From positions 1 through 45,378 of the forward strand of contig CALMJI010000027.1 of the NCBI GenBank assembly GCA_937864235.1: 45,378 bases of DNA, given 5' to 3'. Of this stretch, positions 1 to 1,544 are shown one piece after another. A program made the translations under genes and the position numbers. Within the stretch, counting starts at the first letter, position 1. Every line of letters begins with the position of its first letter. The notes below the pieces were generated by a model. That model was not told the origin of the DNA. It did not search any database and worked only from the letters and a program-made list of their open reading frames with translations. Source of the DNA: an uncultured bacterium. Lineage in GTDB: Bacteria > Patescibacteriota > Minisyncoccia > SW-4-49-11.

Positions 1-666
1 ACTAGGAGTACCATTTACTAAGTACTCTAGAGTACCACTGGAAGCTAATGTACCTGATGTTAATGTTGCTGTTAATCCTGTCACTCCTGTGGAGTTAATT
101 GTTTGGCTAGCATAGTTATACCCAACTTCTCCTGCTGTATAAGGTATACTTATTTTTTTGTCTGTATATGTACAAGAAGTAGCGACAAATTTAGGTGAAG
201 GTGGTGGATTTATGGCTATTGTCTGGCCTAACTCTGCTTCTGGAGCTGTCACACTGATTATGTTGTTTGTTGAGTTTCTTCTGACTCCATATGCTCCCCC
301 TTGTGGGTCTACTGGTATGGCTGCTATATAGGTTGGGACTAATGCTCTTAGGTCCGCCTTTCCCTCACAATAATTATTGTCAGGTAGATCATCCGTTGTA
401 CTTCTGGTCCCTGTATTACAGATTTCTTGAAGGGTAAAGGTTATTTCCGGATAGGTGTTCCCCCTATTTCTGACGGTATACTTTTCTAATGCATTATAAA
501 TGGCATTAATATCTGATTTTCTTTTTAGATTCCTTGCTTGGGCTAATTGTCTATTTGGGTTAATCGCTACCAAAGCGATGGTAGATAATATTCCGATTAG
601 TGTTATTACTAAAAGTATTTCTAAGATGGTGAAACCTTTTCTTGTTCCTTTATGAATTTTATTCAT
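1..666 (-). CDS. Type IV pilin-like prepilin, C-terminus cut by window edge
   Basis: Manual translation from ATG at 666 (minus): MNKIHKGTRKGFTILEILLVITLIGILSTIALVAINPNRQLAQARNLKRKSDINAIYNALEKY..., a prepilin peptidase motif (G/FTILE) plus hydrophobic N-terminal helix. Open to the window edge, so absent from the ORF track. Confidence 0.9.
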   Translation of the reverse strand, partial: MNKIHKGTRKGFTILEILLVITLIGILSTIALVAINPNRQLAQARNLKRKSDINAIYNALEKYTVRNRGNTYPEITFTLQEICNTGTRSTTDDLPDNNYCEGKADLRALVPTYIAAIPVDPQGGAYGVRRNSTNNIISVTAPEAELGQTIAINPPPSPKFVATSCTYTDKKISIPYTAGEVGYNYASQTINSTGVTGLTATLTSGTLASSGTLEYLVNGTPS

Positions 667-687
667 ATATGTGTGTTAATTTATATT

Positions 688-718
688 ATTTTACCCCCCC
701 CCCCCGGAATTTTGTCAA
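688..718 (-). promoter_or_regulatory. Prepilin promoter: -35 TTGACA (718-713), 19-bp spacer containing G12, -10 TAAAAT (693-688)
   Basis: Minus-strand sequence TTGACA-AAATTCC-GGGGGGGGGGGG-TAAAAT, -10 ending 21 nt before the prepilin ATG. Confidence 0.65.
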
Positions 719-824
719 GTTTTTTGAAGGGTTTTTATATATAACTTTATTATATACCTTGGTTTGGGATTTTGCAATGGTTGGGATTGTGGATATGTCT
801 TTTTTGAATTGTTAGTGGTGAGTT

Positions 825-1065
825 ATCCACCTCCGTCTTTCAGACTTCCCCCTCCAAAGGGGGACAGTTTACTAGAGTTGTTTGTCGCCATCTTGAGGGC
901 TTTCGTCCCTCCTAAGGGAGACAAAAATACATTAGCTCAGTCCTCTCCTCCGTCACCTACGGTGACACCTCCCCCAAGGGAGGACAGAGAGCAAGGACAA
1001 AAAACTCTCCACCCCTCAAGAGGGGAATTGGCTCAGCCCACCTCCGCCTGACTGCCGTAGGTAGT
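825..1065. repeat. Cluster of CTCC/GGAG palindromic intergenic repeats (REP/MITE-like family)
   Basis: Motifs such as tccacctccgtctttcagacttccccctccaaagggggaca, ccctcctaagggagacaaaa and cctcccccaagggaggacag resemble those at 30380, 34630 and 43440. Confidence 0.7.
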
Positions 1066-1142
1066 AATGAGGATAATAATTCACAGGTCGCCGACTCTAA
1101 GGATTTCTTATTTTTATAGATTTTATGATATACTAGCAATAT

Positions 1143-1544
1143 ATGAAGTATTTACGATTTATTCCGGCTATTATTATATTTAGTATAATTTGGTATTTAT
1201 CAGACCAACCTGGGCTTAAGTCCGATTATACTCCTATTATTGACTTCTTTTTGAGAAAAGGGGCTCATATTGTGGAATATTTAATCTTGTATTTAGCTTT
1301 ATTTTGGGTATTTTTGAATAAAAAGTTTAATAAATTATCTATTAATAGTTTTAACTATTTGAATACTAAAACCTTTTGTATAGGATTTATAACGACTTTA
1401 TTAGATGAATGGCATCAGACTTGGGTTATTGGCAGAGAAGGTAAGCCTTTAGATATAGCTTTTGACTTGATAGGATTTTTATTAGCTTATATTATTCTGT
1501 GGGCTATTTGGAATTATTCAAAAAAATATAAATATACTAAATAA
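1143..1544 (+). CDS. VanZ-like family membrane protein
   Basis: SDQPGL...RKGAHIVEYLILYLALF...TTLLDEWHQTWVIGREGKPLDIAFDLIGFLLA, typical VanZ-like pattern. Confidence 0.8.
   Translation: MKYLRFIPAIIIFSIIWYLSDQPGLKSDYTPIIDFFLRKGAHIVEYLILYLALFWVFLNKKFNKLSINSFNYLNTKTFCIGFITTLLDEWHQTWVIGREGKPLDIAFDLIGFLLAYIILWAIWNYSKKYKYTK

Follow-up and report, generated by a model that had tools for sequence, protein, structure and literature searches.

In several bacteria, surface proteins are phase-varied through repeats in their promoters. At Neisseria meningitidis porA, a poly-G tract lies between the -35 and -10 hexamers, and 11 G give a high protein level, 10 G an approximately 2-fold lower level and 9 G a 13-fold lower level (PMC3639595). 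At Treponema pallidum tp0126, transcription is best when the poly-G tract gives a 17-nt spacing (PMC7864442). The locus described here has a G tract between -35 and -10, like porA and like tp0126 and the tpr genes. However, PorA is an outer-membrane porin of a pathogen and is encoded at a single locus, whereas the cassettes described here are copied, include a further promoter upstream and belong to a pilin family of a bacterium with an ultrasmall genome. The products of tp0126 and tpr likewise differ from a pilin, since they are OmpW-like or Tpr outer-membrane proteins. In Haemophilus influenzae, the promoter region shared by the hif genes contains TA repeats. Fimbrial genes are phase-varied through promoter-region repeats at hif (PMC11868660), although in that case the repeat is a dinucleotide, the promoters are divergent and the fimbriae are of the chaperone-usher type. 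In Neisseria opc, a promoter homopolymer (poly-C) also tunes a surface adhesin, but this tract extends over the -35 region, and an action by hexamer spacing is not thought likely (PMC6389960, PMC7864442).

The products of the genes described below resemble Streptococcus sanguinis PilB, in which a large adhesive domain is grafted onto a short pilin module (PMC8179133); this domain is vWA in PilB, in contrast to LamG/ConA-like, FGE-like or Gly-rich here. In ultrasmall bacteria, the type IV pili of the Saccharibacteria (TM7x) serve in host binding, according to a paper in which the term phase variation is absent (PMC12206443). A paper on Gracilibacteria reports a coding repeat and no promoter tract. 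We found no report of promoter homopolymer phase variation in Patescibacteria in the literature searched, which is weak evidence because subscription journals, for the most part, and preprints were outside its coverage. The mechanism is already known. The group of hosts, a pilin cassette present in several copies and the spread in ultrasmall bacteria appear to be unreported in the literature searched. Pili are leading candidates for the means by which ultrasmall episymbionts select and keep their hosts. The interest of the locus lies in a copied cassette on an adhesive pilin family in an ultrasmall bacterium, and in the evidence for poly-G promoters in many such genomes.

A G12 tract between the hexamers of a predicted prepilin promoter

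The window analysed is a 45,378-nt stretch of DNA from an uncultured bacterium. The ribosomal protein uL30 is absent in all 13 of the genomes compared (the window genome and 12 relatives) and is present in 13 of 14 controls. Patescibacteria (CPR) are marked by a lack of uL30 and by a genome size of approximately 1 Mb or below. The window genome, a complete genome of 815 kb with no uL30, fits this group.

The features of the locus are collected in Table 1. The original prediction placed the G12 tract exactly between the -35 and -10 hexamers (promoter P1), and all its coordinates were reproduced: the spacer with G12 is 19 bp, and the distance from TAAAAT to the prepilin ATG (666-664, minus strand) is 21 nt. 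As at porA and tp0126, the homopolymer lies entirely inside the -35/-10 interval. The tract had also been described as the sole long G/C homopolymer of the window; indeed, the window is 33% GC and its longest other G or C run is 6. By a first-order Markov expectation, runs of at least 12 should occur 0.001 times per window and 0.018 times per 815-kb genome. A search of window positions 600-1200 for a structured leader RNA gave no Rfam match.

Table 1 Positions of the pilin gene and promoter elements in the window
Feature	Positions	Strand	Remark
Gene for a type IV prepilin-like protein of 222 aa or more, with N_methyl motif GFTILEILLVITLIGILSTIALVAINPNRQ	1..666	-	cut by contig end
Promoter cassette, 174 nt	687..860	-	identity with C21:3552-3725, 100%; with C10, 90%; with C18, 82% over part of the length
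P1 -10 hexamer TAAAAT	688..693	-	unchanged in all four cassette copies
G12 tract in P1 spacer, presumed hypermutable element	694..705	-	G12/G12/G7/G6 across four homologous copies
P1 spacer, non-repetitive part AAATTCC	706..712	-	sequence
P1 -35 hexamer TTGACA (perfect consensus)	713..718	-	kept in all four cassette copies
P2, promoter-like pair TTGCAA-17-TATAAT, no tract	749..777	-	conserved in cassette copies
Dispersed repeat CCTTTGGAGGGGGAAGTCTGAAAGACGGAGGTGGATA, upstream end of cassette	824..860	-	more copies on contigs C23, C24, C4, C1, C25

The gene downstream of the tract is a prepilin gene, as had been claimed: its N_methyl domain (PF07963) scores 23.7 bits with a cut-off of 21.2, and the product has a class III signal peptide (G-F-T-x-x-E and a hydrophobic helix). 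The N_methyl motif above its cut-off suggests that the product is surface-exposed. The reading frame is incomplete because the window is the whole of contig C27, and the contig breaks there because its end carries a 55-nt exact repeat common to the pilin gene of contig C7. The right end of contig C21 carries the end of a LamG gene, which over its outermost 70 nt shows 97% identity to C7 slightly past this 55-nt repeat. The window pilin followed by the C21 pilin may form a tandem array.

The pilins of this genome are modular, and their large C-terminal modules are lectin-like or of other kinds. N_methyl is combined with LamG/ConA-like domains on C18 and in one protein of C7 (C7b), and with a Gly-rich part plus LamG in another protein of C7. 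The C10 pilin has an FGE-like domain slightly under its cut-off, and the C21 pilin (557 aa) has a C-terminal part without a named family. Diversification of the pilins by a DGR was considered and rejected, since the genome has no match to a reverse transcriptase (PF00078). Between two pilin genes on C21 (L003:269-1315), we observed an integrase/transposase-like reading frame, of IS3 or IS481 type by eye; one of the flanking pilin genes stops after 63 codons.

Copies of the cassette and their tract lengths

In the whole genome, G runs of at least 12 occur at exactly two places, both in the same promoter context, and runs of at least 10 at only three (G12, G12 and G11). The identity between the window and C21 cassettes ends just past TAAAATA, and beyond this point two different prepilin genes follow. 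The copies on C10 and C18, found by BLAST, each lie before a prepilin gene and keep both TTGACA and TAAAAT, with AAAGTTAAT-G6 and AAAGCTCC-G7 as the respective spacers. Across the four paralogous cassettes, the spacers measure 19, 19, 15 and 15 bp while both hexamers are constant, and each cassette is approximately 40 nt or less from the ATG of a different prepilin gene. Before the other prepilin genes of the genome, no G tract was found.

The G11 tract lies on the minus strand at G000:C6:59388-59398, within a reading frame that starts with MKNIYFVRHGESEGNKERVYQ and has a histidine-phosphatase-type start. It breaks the frame: translation of the first part stops after WGGG, and the remainder continues in another frame. 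This arrangement makes a coding contingency locus likely. With two tracts in P1 spacers and one that breaks a frame, all three tracts of at least 10 G are therefore situated where slippage would switch a gene.

The tract might be produced by assembly or sequencing, as poly-G from two-colour chemistry or as a collapsed repeat. The assembly is fragmented, the cassette is a 174-nt exact repeat close to contig ends, and a short-read assembler could have collapsed the two identical G12 copies. Nevertheless, the tract is internal, its flanks recur on two contigs as well as in the diverged copies with shorter tracts, and genomes of unrelated bacteria show the same design. We therefore regard an artefact as scarcely credible.

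Another explanation is that the tract is a relic of slippage without regulatory effect, its length drifting neutrally in a weak promoter. Because the spacers of the four copies are all off the 17-bp optimum, no copy is in the predicted strong state, as neutral drift would allow. On the other hand, long G runs are otherwise absent from an AT-rich window, and in many bacteria such tracts are found repeatedly between hexamers before surface genes, which is not expected from drift. Thus, we think neutral drift improbable.

Instead, the copies point to a phase-variable promoter cassette of a modular type IV pilin family, acting by slipped-strand mispairing of the porA/tp0126 type, and on comparison of the sequences we consider this reading likely. 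Two points speak against it: the tracts of 7 and 6 G are rather short for frequent slippage, and none of the four copies has the 17-bp spacer predicted to be strong. RNA polymerase would start at P1. We infer that slipped-strand mispairing at replication alters the length of the G tract at random, so that cells of one population would differ in it. Tract length would fix the distance between the hexamers and hence the strength of P1; by sigma-factor spacing rules that come from other bacteria and may not be those of this one, G12 (19 bp) would be weak and G10 (17 bp) strong. Since the same cassette has been copied before at least four different pilin genes, each gene could vary independently, and the population would contain cells with different pilus repertoires, which would play a part in attachment. 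Because sister copies of the promoter differ in run length, the pilus proteins are probably turned up and down at random.

A putative upstream promoter, P2

A second promoter-like pair, P2, which the original prediction did not mention, adjoins P1 upstream in the same orientation, and therefore switching of P1 may modulate expression without being a complete on/off switch. With its fixed spacing, P2 would probably supply a basal level, and the tract would tune output from low to high.

All transcription could also come from P2. If P2 is the true promoter, its transcript contains the G tract within the 5′ untranslated region, and tract length would act, if at all, via elongation, RNA structure or the formation of an R-loop or G-quadruplex. 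P2 has the optimal spacer, matches 10 of 12 consensus positions and is conserved in the cassettes on C21 and C10. Furthermore, two other pilin genes, C3_20451 and C21_221, are without P1 and have a P2-like element as their sole visible promoter (TTTACA-17-TACAAT and TTGCAA-16-TATAAT, respectively). However, the -35 of P1 is perfect and its -10 invariant in all four copies despite changed bases between them, whereas the -10 of P2 is altered to TATAAC in the C18 copy; in unrelated genomes, too, G tracts lie directly against -10 hexamers with the spacing of a promoter. Taking both sides together, we judge it unlikely that P2 acts alone, although this is easier to entertain than neutral drift.

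The claim of a phase-variable pilin promoter is supported, with two corrections. The paralogs keep the hexamers while their tracts are 12, 12, 7 and 6, and relatives have tracts at the same position; the fixed P2, however, makes a simple on/off switch less certain, and the design is a common one, as described below. For a cassette with both promoters, the simplest history would be that P2 is the older pilin promoter, that P1 and its G tract were added downstream and that the pair then spread by recombination. Because the identical stretch of the cassette ends upstream in a dispersed repeat, homology for recombinational exchange would be on offer. The interval from this cassette to the following gene (window positions 824-1050) contains dispersed repeats that are G/C-rich and include inverted repeats (CCTCCCTTGGGGGAGG...).

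Poly-G promoters in other genomes

When the locus was compared with relatives, as the original prediction had proposed, G tracts were found at the same promoter position in the same genus, in the class and in Saccharibacteria. The design had been expected to be unusual for a streamlined bacterium, and this expectation failed because the layout recurs across these groups. In the genus, TATACAAAATC-G11 or G10 was found at two loci of genome G002, one preceding a membrane protein and one a secreted protein; the two genomes of the genus possess pilin homologs, but without cassette or tract.

In a survey of the class that covered 384 genomes, TTGACA-N-G6-N-TANNNT gave approximately 80 matches in 51 genomes, compared with 5 for the reversed pattern. 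Part of these matches are CsoR-like palindromic operators beside CsoR-like genes, at loci separate from the window locus, and the remainder are pure G runs. An origin of the window G run from a CsoR-type operator (palindrome ATACCCCNNGGGGGGTAT) was rejected, as the run is pure G with no C arm. G8 directly before TANNNT was found 142 times in the class versus 39 times for the reversed pattern. At 101 G8-TANNNT sites, TTGACA-like hexamers (at least 5 of 6 positions) numbered 23 over the 7 spacings of 14-20 versus 22 over the 24 spacings of 21-44. The class sites with a good -35 showed no enrichment for secreted products (4 of 20).

Beyond the class, the Saccharibacterium G386 has one promoter and leader twice, at two contig ends (JAPUEE010000005.1 and another; L372, L373), with G12 at one and G13 at the other and with differing upstream flanks. 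The same genome has a prepilin gene behind TTGACATCTCTCGAT-G9-TATACT, with an 18-bp spacer. The named genomes among the matches listed include many gut Clostridia and Bacilli, Saccharibacteria, Helicobacter, Treponema, Moraxella and others. For TTGACA-N-G9+-TANNAT in named genomes, mostly of gut bacteria, 55 of the 68 downstream genes among the matches listed encode an N-terminal hydrophobic segment, compared with 114 among 464 background ORFs (p 3e-19). The spacers at 80 named loci among the matches listed are mostly 16 and 18-20 bp (16 bp, 13 loci; 17 bp, 6; 18 bp, 22; 19 bp, 24). The dip at 17 bp may mean that most of the sampled genomes are outside the optimal state or that the optimum differs. 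The poly-G promoter layout, as judged from these pattern matches, is widespread and not peculiar to the window genome.

A wider meaning can be proposed tentatively, and we hold it possible rather than probable: a streamlined and probably host-dependent bacterium would practise combinatorial bet-hedging with a hypermutable tandem-promoter cassette on several modular pilin/lectin genes, each cell having its own attachment mix, and similar poly-G promoters would be a general means by which Patescibacteria diversify their cells despite few regulators. With a hypermutable promoter on several pilin genes, heterogeneity of attachment among single cells could be tested by counting G tracts in existing reads. 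Homopolymer phase variation, which has mostly been studied in pathogens, would also be common in Patescibacteria-like genomes.

Several other poly-G promoters in the class were noted. Genome G026 has four paralogous promoters of the form TTGACA[CT]GCGC[AG]TGA-Gn-TATACT, with G8, G9, G10 and G10, before four different genes (L360, L361, L020); this is another copied poly-G cassette and is not on pilins. In several genera, members of a gene family starting YNDIISVENLLLAWQEFLKGKKKKEDV... (reverse transcriptase by eye) lie directly behind G8-G11 and a -10-like hexamer (L303, L321, L338, L340, L341 and L342; genomes G235, G289, G163, G090 and G238). From this position, they may be phase-variable retroelements. 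Small proteins that seem to form one family (M-x-KEKYQPSExE...AE) follow poly-G promoters in various families of the class (L105, L269, L277, L290, L365). Finally, near G124:C8 30043-30056 (L350), a reading frame whose N-terminus is Cas12a-like by eye begins 86 nt behind G10-TAAAAT, with a poor -35; if this reading is true, a CRISPR effector would be phase-variable.
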